Of a stretch of 64,000 nucleotides of DNA, positions 16,565 through 41,448 are shown one piece after another (within the stretch, counting starts at the first letter, position 1; each line of letters opens with the position of its first letter). Position numbers and translations under genes: made by a program. The stretch is taken from the NCBI GenBank assembly GCA_015709315.1, contig JACCQI010000005.1, forward strand, positions 1 through 64,000, in the 5' to 3' direction. This DNA comes from Desulfovibrionaceae bacterium (GTDB taxonomy: Bacteria; Desulfobacterota; Desulfovibrionia; Desulfovibrionales; Desulfovibrionaceae). Under the pieces are notes generated by a model that did no database searches, was not told where the DNA came from, and saw nothing but the letters and a program-made list of their open reading frames with translations.

Positions 16565-18082
16565 GTGCTGGCCCTGGTCTGCATCGCGGCGGTCGGCGCC
16601 TGGATCGGGTTCGCCAACCCCCTGTTCCATTTTCCTCCGGTCGTCCTGGCGTTTCCCCTGGGACTGGCCTGGATCGGCCTGCGCGCAACATCCGGGAAGA
16701 ACGCCTTCAAGTACGGCTGGCTGGCCGGTACGCTCGCGGCCACGGGCTGCTATTACTGGATGGTCATCCCGGTCCAGATATACGGCGGCCTGCCCTGGTA
16801 CATCGCCCTGCCCTGCCCGTTGTTGCTGGCCGCCTTCATGAGCCTGTACTACGGCCTTTTTTCCCTGAGCATGCATTTTGCCGGGCAACGGATTTCGGGG
16901 ATCGCGCTCTGTCTGCTGGCGGGCCTTTCCTGGACCACGCTCGAAATGCTGTCCAGCTTCGTGCTTTCCGGGTTCCCGTGGATCAACCTGTCCGCCGCCT
17001 TCGCCGCGTGGCCCGTGGCCATCCAGGGGGCGTCCGTGCTGGGAGCCTACGGCTTGTCCGGGGTCCTGGCCTGCCTGGCCGTGGCCGCCCTGCTCTGCTC
17101 CACCTATCGCAGCGCGCTCTGGCTGACCGTTGTGCTGGCCATCGGACTCACCGCTTTCGGTGTATACCGGACCAGCGCCTTCGACGTGGGCCAACGCGAC
17201 TACACCGTGTCGCTCATTCAGGGCGACGTGGACCAGGGAGCCAAGTGGACCCCCGAATACCTGACGAAAACCGTCAGGAAATACACCAGGTTGAGCATAG
17301 AAGCCATTGAGAGGGAACAGCCGGACCTGGTCATCTGGCCGGAAACGGCCATGACCTTTTTCGTCCAGGACCAATCCCCGCTACGCCAGGGGCTTGAAAT
17401 CCTGGCCCGCGAGACCAAGACGCCCATCGTCATCGGCTCCCCGGCCTACTTGATCACCGACCCGAAAACCAAGGCGTACAACCTGTTCAACCGGGCCTGG
17501 CTCATGGACGCGACCGGGGCCACGAACCAGTTTTACGACAAGGAACATCTGGTCCCGTTCGGCGAATACATGCCCTTTGAGGACTGGGTGCCTTTCGAGA
17601 AGCTCGTCCAGGCGGCGGGGAATTTTCTGCCCGGCGTGGAAAACAGGCCGCTTGTCTCCGGCGACGTTGCCCTCGGGATGCTCATCTGCTATGAAGCCAT
17701 ATTCCCGGAGCTTGCCCAGAGACAGGTGTCCATGGGAGCCAACGTGCTGGTGAACATCAGCAATGACGCATGGTTCGGCAACACATCCGCCCCCGCCCAG
17801 CATCTGGATCTGGCCGTCATGCGGGCCGTGGAACAGGGCCGCTGGCTGGCCCGCTGCACCAACACGGGCATCACGGCCTTTGTTGATCCCGTGGGCCGGA
17901 TCGCGGCCAAGGGGACGCAGTTCCGCGCCGAGAGCCTGAGCATGCGAATCGCCCCGCTCACCGGCCTGACCGTCTACCACCGAATCCGGGACTGGCTCGA
18001 CGCGGCCGTGTACGTCATAACCGCAGCCATATTTGCCGGGCTGGCCTTCAAGGCCGGGCGGAAGAAAGGAAATACATTGTAA
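16565..18082 (+). CDS. lnt: Apolipoprotein N-acyltransferase
   Basis: Inner-membrane enzyme that adds the third acyl chain to lipoproteins. The 505-residue product has an N-terminal block of about six membrane helices and a periplasmic nitrilase-like domain carrying the catalytic triad: Glu in WPETAM, Lys in YDKEHLVPFGEYMP and Cys in GMLICYEAIFPE. A last membrane helix is near the C-terminus. It starts with GTG 3 bases after corC, and its TAA stop shares a base with the ATG of prfB (TAATG). Three genes are therefore tightly coupled. Confidence 0.96.
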   Translation: MLALVCIAAVGAWIGFANPLFHFPPVVLAFPLGLAWIGLRATSGKNAFKYGWLAGTLAATGCYYWMVIPVQIYGGLPWYIALPCPLLLAAFMSLYYGLFSLSMHFAGQRISGIALCLLAGLSWTTLEMLSSFVLSGFPWINLSAAFAAWPVAIQGASVLGAYGLSGVLACLAVAALLCSTYRSALWLTVVLAIGLTAFGVYRTSAFDVGQRDYTVSLIQGDVDQGAKWTPEYLTKTVRKYTRLSIEAIEREQPDLVIWPETAMTFFVQDQSPLRQGLEILARETKTPIVIGSPAYLITDPKTKAYNLFNRAWLMDATGATNQFYDKEHLVPFGEYMPFEDWVPFEKLVQAAGNFLPGVENRPLVSGDVALGMLICYEAIFPELAQRQVSMGANVLVNISNDAWFGNTSAPAQHLDLAVMRAVEQGRWLARCTNTGITAFVDPVGRIAAKGTQFRAESLSMRIAPLTGLTVYHRIRDWLDAAVYVITAAIFAGLAFKAGRKKGNTL

Positions 18083-19201
18083 TGCTTGAATACCCGGAAC
18101 TCAAAGCCGCTTCGGCGGAACTCCTGACTCAATTCGAAACCCTCTGGGGGCGTCTTTGACTACGCCGAAACCCGGCATCGGCTGGACGAGATAGAAAAGG
18201 CCCTTTCCAAGCCGGGCGCGTGGGACAAACCCGAAGCCCTGACCCCTGTACTCAAGGAAAAAAGCCAGCTTACCACCAAGCTCGACATGTACGACGGACT
18301 GTCCGAGGCCAAGGACGACCTCGACGCATGGCTTGAGCTGGCCCATGAAGACCCGGACGAGGAATCCCTTTCCGCCCTTTCGCAGCAGGTGAATCTGTTG
18401 CGTGAACGGCTGTCCGGCATCGAGCTGGCGACCATGTTCGCCTTCGAACACGACAGGCTGGGCGCCATCCTGGAAATCCATCCGGGCGCGGGCGGCGTGG
18501 AATCCCAGGACTGGGCGGAGATGCTTCTGCGGATGTACAACCGCTACGCCGAGCGCAAGGGGTTCAAGGTCACCCAGCTCGACTACCAGGCGGGCGAGGA
18601 AGCGGGCGTCAAGTCCGTCACCCTGCAAATCGAGGGATTGTTCGCCTACGGGCTGCTCAAGGGCGAGGCCGGCGTTCACCGGCTCATCCGCATCTCCCCC
18701 TTTGATTCCTCCGGGCGTCGGCACACGTCGTTCGCCTCGGTGGACGTTTATCCCGACATGGATGACGACATCGAGATCGAGATCAAGGACGAGGACCTTC
18801 GCATCGATACCTTCCGGTCCAGCGGGCCGGGCGGTCAATCCGTGAACAAGACCAGCTCGGCCGTCCGCATCACCCATATCCCGACCGGCATCGTGGCCCA
18901 GTGCCAGAACGAAAAGTCCCAGCACCGGAACAAGGCCACGGCCCTGCGCCTGGTCAAGGCCCGCCTGTACGAAAGAGAGCTCAAGAAGATCGAGGAAAGC
19001 CGCAGACAGGATTACCAGGCCAAGGAGGCCATTGCCTGGGGCAGCCAGATCAGGACATACACTCTGCAACCGTATCGTTTGGTCAAGGATCACCGTTCCA
19101 ACAGCGAAACCGGCAACGTGGACGCCTTCCTGGACGGGGACATGGACGAAATGATCAGAAACCACCTACTCTGGATACATGCCCAAGGACAAAACAATTG
19201 A
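18082..19201 (+). CDS. prfB: Peptide chain release factor 2, programmed +1 frameshift
   Basis: Releases peptides at UGA and UAA. Translation starts at ATG 18082 and reads 25 codons up to an in-frame UGA at 18157-18159 within CTT TGA C. A +1 slip on CTT brings the ribosome into the frame that continues GAC TAC GCC and stays open to 19201, giving about 372 residues. A GGGGG run a few bases upstream (18146-18150) is the Shine-Dalgarno-like stimulator. The body has the RF2 recognition tripeptide in ISPFDSSG and the GGQ motif in SSGPGGQSVNKT. This is the classic RF2 autoregulatory shift, so a single-frame reading misses the first 68 residues. Confidence 0.97.
18146..18160 (+). promoter_or_regulatory. 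prfB +1 programmed frameshift site
   Basis: GGGGG (18146-18150), a 3-base spacer, then CTT TGA C (18154-18160). Spacing and slippery codon match the canonical RF2 site. Confidence 0.93.
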
Positions 19202-20045: not shown

Positions 20046-20855
20046 ATGAACGAAAACAATACGCTTTCAATCTCCATCCTGAGCGGCAAGGGCGGGGTCG
20101 GCAAGACCAATATCGTCCTCAATCTCGGATATGCGCTGAACCAGGCCGAACAAAAGGCCTTGATAATGGACTGCGATCTCGGGCTGGCCAACCTCGACGT
20201 CCTGCTGGGCATCTCCCCCGACCGCAACCTCCAGGACCTGCTGCGCGAGGATGTGGGTGTCGAGGACGTGCTCGTCTCCATCGAGAACGGATTCGACATG
20301 CTCCCGGCCACCAGCGGCGTGCCCGAACTCGTGGAGATGGACGAGGACCTGCAGGACATCCTGTTCAAGAAGCTCGTCAACATCGCGGGCCGGTACGACT
20401 ATCTCATGCTCGACCTGGGCGCGGGCATCAGCCCCACGGTCCTGTCGCTGGCCTCCGTAACCCAGCTTCGGGTCGTGGTCATAACCCCGGAACCGACCTC
20501 GTTGACCGACAGCTACGCCATGATCAAGGTCCTGGCCACGCAATACGGCATCAAGGACTTCCTGGTGCTCATCAACCAGGCCGCCACCGCCGCCGAGGCC
20601 AACCAGACGTTCGACAGGCTCGACGCGGCCTGCCGGAATTTCCTCAATCTCAAGCTGCGCAACCTCGGGTTCATCCACCAGGATTCCACGGTGATAAAGT
20701 CGGTGCGGCGGCAAACGCCGCTCATGAAAATGGCCCCGGAATCGCGGGCCGCAAAGGATATTCAGGCCCTGGCGAAACGGATCATGCGCTACCGCGAAGA
20801 CAATCTGGAGCGCATCTCCGGACGCCCCATTCTGAAGAATTTCTTCGACGCATGA
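20046..20855 (+). CDS. MinD/ParA family ATPase (FlhG-like)
   Basis: P-loop ATPase of 269 residues with the deviant Walker A SGKGGVGKTNIVLNLGYAL, MDCDLGLANLDVLLG and the Walker B region YDYLMLDLGAGI. Such proteins place or count cell structures. The overall pattern, including a C-terminal RRQTPLMKMAPESRAAKDI, looks more like FlhG/YlxH (flagellar number control) than MinD. No flagellar genes are nearby, so the cargo is open. A GGAG site precedes the ATG. It follows the diguanylate cyclase, so a shared role in motility or surface choice is conceivable. Confidence 0.85.
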   Translation: MNENNTLSISILSGKGGVGKTNIVLNLGYALNQAEQKALIMDCDLGLANLDVLLGISPDRNLQDLLREDVGVEDVLVSIENGFDMLPATSGVPELVEMDEDLQDILFKKLVNIAGRYDYLMLDLGAGISPTVLSLASVTQLRVVVITPEPTSLTDSYAMIKVLATQYGIKDFLVLINQAATAAEANQTFDRLDAACRNFLNLKLRNLGFIHQDSTVIKSVRRQTPLMKMAPESRAAKDIQALAKRIMRYREDNLERISGRPILKNFFDA

Positions 20856-20872
20856 TAAATACAAATAAAGGG

Positions 20873-20902
20873 TTGACGAAAAGAGCCATTTTTCGGCATA
20901 GT
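20873..20902 (+). promoter_or_regulatory. Candidate promoter of second HU gene
   Basis: TTGACG (20873-20878), an 18-nt spacer and CATAGT (20897-20902), 5 of 6 and 4 of 6 matches; about 90 bases of leader precede the HU start. Confidence 0.5.
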
Positions 20903-20991
20903 TAGTAAGAATTTCGGAATTGATTTCTTTTTCTTTTCCCGCAATGGGGCTTTTCTCCCAGCGGGCAATGTACCATTCTGAGGGGGAAATT

Positions 20992-21267
20992 ATGAATAAG
21001 AGCGAATTGATCAAGGCTCTGTCGGAACAGAAGAAAATGCACGTGGACGAGGCCACCAAGGTGGTCGGAGCCTTCGTCGATTCCGTCAAGGAAGCCCTGC
21101 TCCGCGGCGACCGCGTCGAAATCAGAGGTTTCGGCAGCTTCAAGATCAAGGACTATGAAGGCTATACTGGACGCAATCCCAAGACCGGTTCCGTGGTCCA
21201 GGTCAAGCCCAAGAAACTTCCTTTTTTCCGTCCCGGCAAAGAGCTGAAGGAATACATCAACCAGTAG
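20992..21267 (+). CDS. HU/IHF family DNA-binding protein (second copy)
   Basis: A 91-residue nucleoid protein: N-terminal MNKSELIKALSEQKK, the DNA-binding arm region with GFGSFKIKDYEGYTGRNPKT and the C-terminal FFRPGKELKEYI. It is distinct from the HU at 7898-8170. The open frame reaches back to 20920, but GAGGGGG before the ATG at 20992 and the family N-terminus set the start. Its TAG stop is one base from the ATG of the selenoprotein candidate, so both are probably read from one mRNA. Confidence 0.95.
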   Translation: MNKSELIKALSEQKKMHVDEATKVVGAFVDSVKEALLRGDRVEIRGFGSFKIKDYEGYTGRNPKTGSVVQVKPKKLPFFRPGKELKEYINQ

Positions 21268-21268
21268 G

Positions 21269-22129
21269 ATGCGACGGTTTGCGTACTGCCTTTTTTTGGC
21301 GGTCGTCGTCTTCGCCTGTGGGTCCGCGCGGGCGGGGCAATCGGTTCTGAGTATCCTGTACTCGGCCAACACGTATGGCACGTTGCGACCATGCCCTTCC
21401 TGAGGGGGTAAAACCCTCGGAGGCTTGGCCCGGCGGGCCACCTATTTTTTTGACGTCCACAAGACTTCGGCTCCGCGGCTCCTGGTTTCCGGCGCATGGG
21501 AATACATGCGGCCGGGCGGCCTGCCGTTATCCCGGTCCGTCCTGGCCTCGACCTCCGAGGCTCTGAGCATCATGGGCTACGACGTGGGGTTTTTGTCGCG
21601 CGAAGAGGCCGACGTCCTGGCCGAGGCGGACATCGCTCCGCCATCCTGGCAACGGACAGCCGAAGCGGCCCCCGTCACCATCGTGACCACATCGGCGGGA
21701 GACAGGATCGGGTTTTTGCGATTCCCCGCCCTGGCGGCGAACCTCGACGCGCCGCCCCAGGATGTCGTGGACAGCCTGTCGCGGGAAATCGAGAAATGCC
21801 GCTCCGGCGTCAAGTTGCTCATCGGCCTGTCCGACTGGGGCTGGCTGGCGGAGCAGGAATACCTGTCCGGCGACCCGAAGTTCGTGCCGGACATCCTGTT
21901 CGGAAGCGGCAGAGGCTCCGGGGTCAACGGACGCATACGCGCCGACGGCCGCTGTCTTTGGGTCAGGGCCTATGACATGGGCAGGAGCTTGGCCGAAATA
22001 ACCATTCTCCAATGGCCCGAAAGGAAAAATTCATTTGCATGGAAACCCGCGAAAAATTATAACACTGAATCCATCGGGTTGAACGATCGGATCAAGGACA
22101 ACCCGGCCGTGAACGCCGTCCTTGAATGA
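21269..22129 (+). CDS. UshA-like selenoprotein, UGA decoded as selenocysteine (predicted)
   Basis: The frame from ATG 21269 runs through an in-frame TGA at 21401-21403 and stays open to 22129: 286 residues with Sec at position 45. The part before the UGA is coherent: a signal peptide (residues 1-22, MRRFAYCLFLAVVV then SARA) and mature SVLSILYSANTYGTLRPCPS. The part after continues GGKTLGGLARRATYFF, a signature I associate with UshA/5'-nucleotidase-like exported proteins whose relatives carry Cys where this has the UGA (CPSC-G). The result is a C42-x-x-U45 redox-type motif. A hairpin at 21422-21442 has SECIS geometry. It starts 1 base after HU, with no own strong ribosome binding site. A pseudogene or sequencing error is the alternative. 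Confidence 0.8.
21404..21442 (+). promoter_or_regulatory. Bacterial SECIS-like element
   Basis: Downstream of the UGA, bases 21426-21431 pair with 21435-21440 around the apical loop GGC (21432-21434). Below is a bulged CT (21424-21425) and a GG/CC pair (21422-21423 with 21441-21442). The loop lies about 28 bases after the UGA and starts with G. Both features, and a bulged U, agree with known bacterial SECIS rules for SelB. Confidence 0.65.
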
Positions 22130-22181
22130 CGGCATGGCGGCCGTGAGGATAACTCACTTTAAGCGTGACAAGGAGATGACC

Positions 22182-23063
22182 ATGGAATTTCGAGGAGCAT
22201 TCACAGCCCTCTCGACCCCGTTCAAGGACGGGCTGATCGATGAAGACACCTACCGGGACTTCATCGAGTGGCAGATCGAGCAGGGAATCGACGGGCTGGT
22301 GCCCTGCGGCACCACCGGCGAGGCGGCCACCATGTCCCACGAGGAACAGGGACGCACCATCAAGGTCTGCGTGGACCAGGTCAAAGGCCGTGTTCCGGTC
22401 ATCGCCGGGGCCGGTTCCAACTCCACCAAGGAAGCCATCGAGCTGACCAAGATGGCCAAGGAAGCCGGGGCCGACGCGACGCTCCAGATCACGCCCTACT
22501 ACAATAAACCCACGCCCGGCGGTCTGGTGGAGCACTTCAAGGCCATCGCCAAAGAGACCTCCATGCCGTTCGTCATTTACAACGTGCCCGGCCGCACCGG
22601 CCTGAATTGCCTGCCCGAGCACCTCAAGATGATCGTGGACGCGGTGCCCGAGGCCGTGGCCGTGAAGGAGGCCACCGGCAACATGAACCAGGCCGCCCAG
22701 GTCATCGAACAGTGCGGCAGGAATTTCAATCTGCTTTCCGGCGACGACTTCACCGTTCTGCCCCTGCTCGCAGTGGGCGGCTGCGGCGTGATCTCGGTCA
22801 TTTCCAACATCATGCCCGGCGAAATGAGCGGACTGGTCAAGGCGTTTTTCGACAAGGACATGGACAAGGCGCTCGACCTGAGCCTCAAGATGGCCCCGGT
22901 CAACCGCGCCATGTTCATGGAGACCAACCCCATTCCGGTCAAGACCGCCCTGGCCATGATGGGCCTTTTCAAGAAAGACGAGTTCCGGCTGCCCATCGTT
23001 CCTTTGCAGCAAGCCAATAAACCCAAACTGGAAGCCGTTCTGAAGAACGCCGGCGTCTTGTAA
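22182..23063 (+). CDS. dapA: 4-hydroxy-tetrahydrodipicolinate synthase
   Basis: Condenses pyruvate with aspartate semialdehyde in lysine and diaminopimelate synthesis. The 293-residue TIM barrel has the GTTGEAATMS motif, the catalytic Tyr in FVIYNVPGRTG and the Schiff-base Lys in AVAVKEATGN. The frame opens at 22122, but AAGGAG six bases before the ATG at 22182 and the family length set the start. It is followed by two terminators in series. The selenoprotein candidate lies just upstream on the same strand, with a 52-base gap. Confidence 0.97.
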   Translation: MEFRGAFTALSTPFKDGLIDEDTYRDFIEWQIEQGIDGLVPCGTTGEAATMSHEEQGRTIKVCVDQVKGRVPVIAGAGSNSTKEAIELTKMAKEAGADATLQITPYYNKPTPGGLVEHFKAIAKETSMPFVIYNVPGRTGLNCLPEHLKMIVDAVPEAVAVKEATGNMNQAAQVIEQCGRNFNLLSGDDFTVLPLLAVGGCGVISVISNIMPGEMSGLVKAFFDKDMDKALDLSLKMAPVNRAMFMETNPIPVKTALAMMGLFKKDEFRLPIVPLQQANKPKLEAVLKNAGVL

Positions 23064-41352: not shown

Positions 41353-41448
41353 TGGCGGAGAGGGTGGGATTCGAACCCACGTACGGGCTATGAACCCGTA
41401 ACTCGATTTCGAGTCGAGCGCGTTACGGCCGGACTTCGCTACCTCTCC
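41353..41448 (-). tRNA. tRNA-Ser (anticodon CGA)
   Basis: Class II tRNA on the minus strand. The acceptor arm pairs GGAGAGG (41448-41442) with CCTCTCC (41363-41357), discriminator G, and the CCA end is encoded (41355-41353). The anticodon arm is CTCGA, loop CTCGAAA, TCGAG, giving anticodon CGA for UCG codons. A long variable arm and a T arm GTGGG-TTCGAAT-CCCAC complete it. Confidence 0.97.

Follow-up and report, generated by a model that had tools for sequence, protein, structure and literature searches.

A predicted selenoprotein of UshA-like family 2 in a Desulfovibrionaceae bacterium, with a candidate SECIS hairpin and a replaced metal site

Phosphoesterases of the UshA/SoxB type carry a set of metal-ligand motifs, DxH, AGD, GNHE, LSHxG and GHTH. 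Two selenoprotein types described as UshA-like come closest to the gene considered here. One, modelled at NCBI as NF049981 ("UshA-like (seleno)protein family 2"), stands in Table 1 of a 2026 review with the motif CxxU and the entry 'GenBank annotated'; SECIS covariation, linkage to an HU gene and overlap of SECIS with a terminator are absent from the consulted parts of its account of family 2 (PMC13188914). The other, the PCGU type modelled as NF041198, is listed in the consulted parts of two papers as COG0737 UshA-like with the motif CxU (PMC2398784, PMC9312934). The bacterial SECIS model quoted in the same parts of the review has an apical loop of 3-9 bases that opens with two G, an upper stem of 4-16 pairs, a distance of 16-37 bases from the UGA and a minimum free energy of at most -7.5 kcal/mol (PMC13188914). 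We compared these systems with a gene in a 64,000-nucleotide stretch of Desulfovibrionaceae DNA (contig JACCQI010000005.1, assembly GCA_015709315.1), hereafter the window.

Relationship to described families

21269-22129, + strand: gene of UshA-like (seleno)protein family 2; 286 residues when TGA is translated as U (Sec45)

The protein matches NF049981 at 316.8 bits (cut-off 140) over residues 27-285, and a search of the genome itself with this model gives 308.1 bits. The score lies far over the cut-off along almost the whole mature protein, CxxU is found in both, and nothing speaks against membership. By this profile evidence the gene adds one member to an already known selenoprotein family; the family itself is not new, given that it has both an NCBI model and a place in the review. 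The NF041198 type is more distant: its model reaches 36.3 bits, far below a cut-off of 275, and aligns with residues 6-73 only, and a profile search with it touched three places in the genome, none above the cut-off. The two types share this N-terminal stretch and a Cys and Sec near the old metal site, but the motif is CxU there and CxxU here, and the model spans 519 positions compared with the 286 residues of our protein. Pfam gave no match to the protein and, across 18 relatives, nothing beyond stray matches to single members.

At the scale of the bacterial family, profile search found a match in 84 of 119 genomes. The 102 matched places, less nine short or partial ones, leave the 93 members examined, which come from 82 genomes; members lying in two overlapping loci were entered once. 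The nine places left out (two each in G010:C2, G032 and G099:C57, and one each in G080:C3, G109:C59 and G084) include one with a single TGA and one with a single TAA. In one genome, two overlapping matched pieces (G010:C2:107172-107934, - strand) seem to represent a further family copy that is broken.

Across the phylum, some match to NF049981 occurs in 153 of 395 genomes and passes the cut-off in six, all from the window's own family. Among 24 phylum-level sub-family loci that were scanned, the motif is present in 17 and absent from 7; all 17 have TGA, with 15 reading CPxU, one CHTU and one PCGU. With the TGA motif in 17 of these 24 loci, UshA-like proteins with Sec seem to form a larger group, of which family 2 would be a single branch. 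A search for relatives by back-translation returned 34 stretches and one locus (L049, Desulfovibrio sp. UBA4079); its pattern was built with Cys codons and was thus blind to TGA-bearing genes.

Reading of the in-frame UGA

21269-21337, + strand: predicted signal peptide, placed by eye from its basic start, its hydrophobic core and A-R-A
21401-21403, + strand: UGA predicted to encode selenocysteine, residue 45, in the motif CPSU

On translation, 21269-22129 (+) consists of 44 codons, TGA, 241 codons and a closing TGA (22127-22129), with no further stop. The signal peptide, recognized by eye, is MRRFAYCLFLAVVVFACGSARA, and the product is presumably exported. The first strand and the loop behind it read ILYSANTYGTLRPCPS-U-GGKTLGGLARRAT, in which codon 45 has the context C-P-S-U-G-G and the CxxU motif takes the form C42-P-S-U45. 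Residues invariant in 18 aligned members include P41, C42, P43, U45, G46, R56, E78, S188, E195 and D208; this alignment (A1), drawn from 18 of the 30 best loci, also served for the profile and the Pfam check described here. All seven members of the genus that the family-wide profile search returned, our own included, have a single TGA, at codon 44 or 45.

Evidence on the meaning of this codon comes from the family. The residue aligned to position 45 is encoded by TGA in 75 of the 93 members, is Cys in the remaining 18, and is nothing else in any of them; the selenoprotein family is thereby widespread in the window's bacterial family. On a tree of the 93 members there are five changes between the Sec and Cys forms, four of them forced by well-supported branches. 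Tandem copies occur in five genomes (L043, L046, L083, L086 and L091), with the Cys type first and the Sec type second.

One alternative is that the TGA is an ordinary stop, through pseudogene formation or sequencing error, and that the real gene starts at the TTG at 21425. An open reading frame from this TTG does exist (21425-22129, in the list of open reading frames), and TTG, CTG, GTG or ATG occupies this place in many relatives, although there the codon encodes the conserved L, V or M of the LARR stretch. Counter to this, 75 of 93 members share the TGA and the other 18 have Cys, and the presence of the same TGA in 75 members excludes a sequencing error. A start at the TTG would also remove both the signal peptide and the CP motif, which does not vary among the 18 aligned members. 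Moreover, substitutions at codon positions 1, 2 and 3, summed over comparisons with six congeners, number 81, 48 and 120 in 261 codons before the TGA and 599, 399 and 876 in 1,444 codons after it, and this periodicity on either side makes both halves of the gene look selected in one frame. We give the ordinary-stop explanation practically no credence. The initial annotation had warned that gene calling would lose the N-terminus: the TTG frame it pointed to is real, but annotation with NF049981 presumably need not lose the gene.

The genome encodes the components for selenocysteine insertion, all above curated cut-offs: tRNA-Sec with anticodon TCA (80.7 bits, cut-off 47), SelB (383.6, cut-off 242.25), SelA (601.3, cut-off 267.9) and SelD (328.2, cut-off 125). 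The same cut-offs were passed by 5, 2, 1 and 2 of 14 control genomes, respectively. Two FdhA genes of the genome also have an in-frame TGA. The selD gene (L048, G000:C16, around 1530) is, by sequence, itself a selenoprotein gene with one in-frame TGA. The only tRNA that ARAGORN reports in the window, a tRNA-Ser with anticodon CGA (41353-41448, - strand), is also matched by the tRNA-Sec model, though below its cut-off.

Readthrough by other means (Trp, Cys or near-cognate suppression) would be a second alternative. We found no evidence in its support; the full Sec machinery in the genome, the absence of Trp at the position from all 93 members, and a complete hairpin behind the codon in 66 of 75 Sec members as against 3 of 18 Cys members all argue against it, and we regard it as extremely improbable. 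Thus, the UGA of codon 45 is almost certainly decoded as selenocysteine, to judge from these comparisons. This is what the initial annotation had proposed from the raw sequence, together with a single frame broken only at codon 45, and it had named Cys in homologs and selA, selB, selC and selD in the genome as checks. The frame is borne out by translation and by the seven genus members, Cys is found as described above, all four genes are present, and the call is thereby confirmed.

Presence of the machinery follows the Sec form in broad outline. We compared SelA in 80 of the 119 genomes: the nine with Cys-type genes only, the 35 in which the gene had no match and, from the remaining 75 (among which G084 and G099 have partial matches only), 36. 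Where a TGA-type gene is present, 35 of 36 genomes passed the SelA cut-off; so did 3 of the 9 that have the Cys type only and 28 of the 35 that lack a match. Counter to a strict link, SelA is retained in three Cys-only genomes and was not seen in one genome of the TGA type, which is 67% complete. From these counts, Cys forms often, but not always, accompany loss of the machinery. One genome whose family 2 gene is of the Cys type has a sub-cut-off piece of SelA (G095:C24:10721-11230; 213.4 bits, profile positions 17-184); a Sec pathway since lost may have left it behind, or the assembly may have a gap there.

A candidate SECIS hairpin and its terminator-like overlap

21426-21440, + strand: SECIS-like hairpin TGGCCC-GGC-GGGCCA; 6 pairs, 3-base loop GGC; from family comparison and folding
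21426-21451, + strand: hairpin + CCTA + T7, intrinsic-terminator-like, inside the reading frame; from a pattern scan

The hairpin starts 22 bases past the UGA, with 28 bases between the UGA and the loop, and a 24-base version of it has a folding energy of -11.2 kcal/mol. In these values it agrees with the bacterial SECIS model quoted above. Like the SECIS elements of, for example, formate dehydrogenase, it is a small hairpin behind the UGA with a 3-base loop starting GG; in the folds predicted for this genome's two fdhA genes and its selD, the 3-base loops are GGC, GGG and GGA and lie 23, 23 and 20 bases past the UGA.

Across the family, the five inner pairs are all formed in the 66 Sec members and three Cys members noted above; the nine Sec members in which they are incomplete, like those three Cys members, are evidence against the assignment. 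Two pairs join third codon positions, on which the protein sequence puts no constraint for most residues. Both co-vary: they are Watson-Crick in 60 and 68 of the 75 Sec members, a level reached in 0 of 5,000 shuffles each, although kinship of the sequences inflates this significance. Against synonymous recoding, the 24-base hairpin has a mean z of -2.14 in 26 Sec members and -1.04 in four Cys members. The window hairpin by itself is unexceptional, both against synonymous recoding (z -1.48, p 0.114) and against shuffles (z -1.51, with 15 of 200 folding equally well), so the case for a SECIS element rests on the family comparison. An Rfam scan of 20600-22700 gave zero matches at E values up to 1. 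For the reasons given with each, we discard a decayed gene, a sequencing error and readthrough other than as Sec.

In the mechanism we propose, SelB with Sec-tRNA(Sec) would bind the hairpin at 21426-21440 and bring selenocysteine to the UGA, codon 45. If selenium were lacking, translation would end at this codon, giving a fragment of 44 residues.

The same hairpin is followed in our gene by a run of seven T, which sets it apart from the fdhA and selD hairpins of this genome, none of which has one. A terminator scan of the region gave three sites, two of them being the SECIS hairpin, and is weak when taken alone because 1.6 sites are expected by chance. The pattern occurs in each of the 7 genus members examined and, across the family, in 18 of the 75 Sec members and none of the 18 Cys members. 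In all seven genus members, at loci of 43-62% G+C, the hairpin is followed by 6-7 T. The codons TAT TTT are identical across the seven. Among 82 columns with an invariant amino acid in these seven members, a single codon is kept in just five, three of them within codons 53-61; such columns make up 3 of 6 in this range and 2 of 76 elsewhere (Fisher p 0.002, for a range picked post hoc and rows that are related). Speaking against a second function, TTT is not rare elsewhere in the seven genes (30 TTT, 35 TTC), though ten other genes of the window have 32 TTT and 93 TTC.

One reading of this overlap is that, in the genus, a single hairpin serves both as SECIS and, together with its T-run, as intrinsic terminator or pause site, forming a selenium-responsive transcription attenuator. 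If Sec insertion failed, the ribosome would come off at the UGA and the hairpin would stop transcription, lowering expression of the remainder of the gene and perhaps of dapA too; if Sec were inserted, the ribosome would advance and disrupt the hairpin. One study reports that recoding in vivo is 30-40% and needs sufficient selenium (PMC4513850), which makes it plausible that stopping at the UGA depends on selenium. The sequence patterns leave us thinking an attenuator unlikely overall. If it were true, selenium supply would set transcription through an attenuator built into a selenoprotein gene; our search of titles and abstracts found no such mechanism and no SECIS that doubles as a terminator.

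Metal site, likely role and gene context

A profile of the 18 aligned members is weakly similar to 5'-nucleotidases (E 0.028) and SoxB (E 0.083). At the places put opposite each other by these weak alignments, AGD is replaced by GAW, GNHE by SREE, LSHxG by LSDWG and GHTH by GRGS. The place of DxH, located by eye, is NTY, a placement supported by a phylum-level relative (L071) that still reads SNDTHG there. All five motifs of the two-metal site of UshA, 5'-nucleotidase and SoxB are therefore replaced. In addition, given its 286 residues and the lack of a Pfam match, the protein shows no sign of the C-terminal nucleotide-binding domain of the nucleotidases, and it differs from them in having Sec. 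A structure model built from two sequences, those of the window and L049, is poor (pLDDT 46.6), and at this quality the fold search is a hint only: metallophosphoesterases lead the Foldseek list, with Mre11 best at E 2.7e-3, and none reaches E 0.001.

The NCBIfam name and these top fold matches might suggest that the protein is still a phosphoesterase or nucleotidase. With the metal motifs standing as NTY, GAW, SREE, LSDWG and GRGS, and with so short a protein lacking both Pfam match and C-terminal domain, we consider such activity very unlikely. The label 'UshA-like' of the initial annotation thus holds for ancestry and fails for activity, and the name UshA is misleading for what is seemingly a phosphoesterase relative without its metal site and with CPxU instead.

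With the five metal-ligand motifs replaced at the aligned places, the protein probably works in redox chemistry and is built on a phosphoesterase that is no longer active. The mature protein would descend from a UshA/SoxB-type metallophosphoesterase that has had its metal-ligand motifs replaced, and the Cys42-Pro-Ser-Sec45 loop would come behind strand one, in the position otherwise expected for the metal site. There, Cys42 and Sec45 would most likely form a selenenylsulfide redox pair in the periplasm and carry out thiol/selenol redox chemistry. The CxxU motif points to such a pair; as a counterexample, one Sec member, L135 (G001:C3), reads PEAGU, keeping the TGA without the Cys. A literature search with most subscription journals outside its reach found nothing on the function of family 2.

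The main rival to a redox role is a selenoprotein of another kind, in which CPxU is a soft-metal site or carries sulfur or selenium, as in a metallochaperone or a persulfide carrier, SoxB being a protein that handles bound sulfur. Three observations are consistent with this: SoxB is weakly similar (E 0.083), Pfam gives no thioredoxin-type match, and the metal site is replaced. Arguing against it, neither of the neighbours surveyed, HU and DapA, handles metal or sulfur. We hold a carrier or soft-metal role to be possible but the less probable of the two, and a redox role to be reasonably likely.

20992-21267, + strand: hup, HU-like DNA-binding protein; from sequence, list of open reading frames and motif survey
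22182-23063, + strand: dapA-like gene (dihydrodipicolinate synthase), an open reading frame downstream of the selenoprotein gene

The neighbours, which we take to be HU and DapA from their motifs, recur across the family. By motif search, 76 of 93 members have an HU-like gene directly upstream; of the 17 others, five are second tandem copies and one is near a contig end. At one locus (L020) the search matched the wrong frame, and the upstream bases do show the end of an HU gene. In the window a single base separates the TAG stop of hup from the ATG of the selenoprotein gene, and in 19 of the 30 best loci the distance is -1 to +3 bases, a spacing that suggests translational coupling of the two genes. 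On the downstream side, at least 44 of 93 members have a DapA-like motif; the stretches searched are short, so this is a minimum. This HU linkage, the replaced metal site and the SECIS/terminator overlap are additions to the initial annotation.

Further upstream in the window lies another case of apparent recoding, in what we presume to be prfB (release factor 2; 18082-19201, + strand). Its frame opens at ATG 18082, ends at CTT TGA C (18154-18160) and continues in the frame of the open reading frame 18287-19201, presumably by a classical +1 frameshift.
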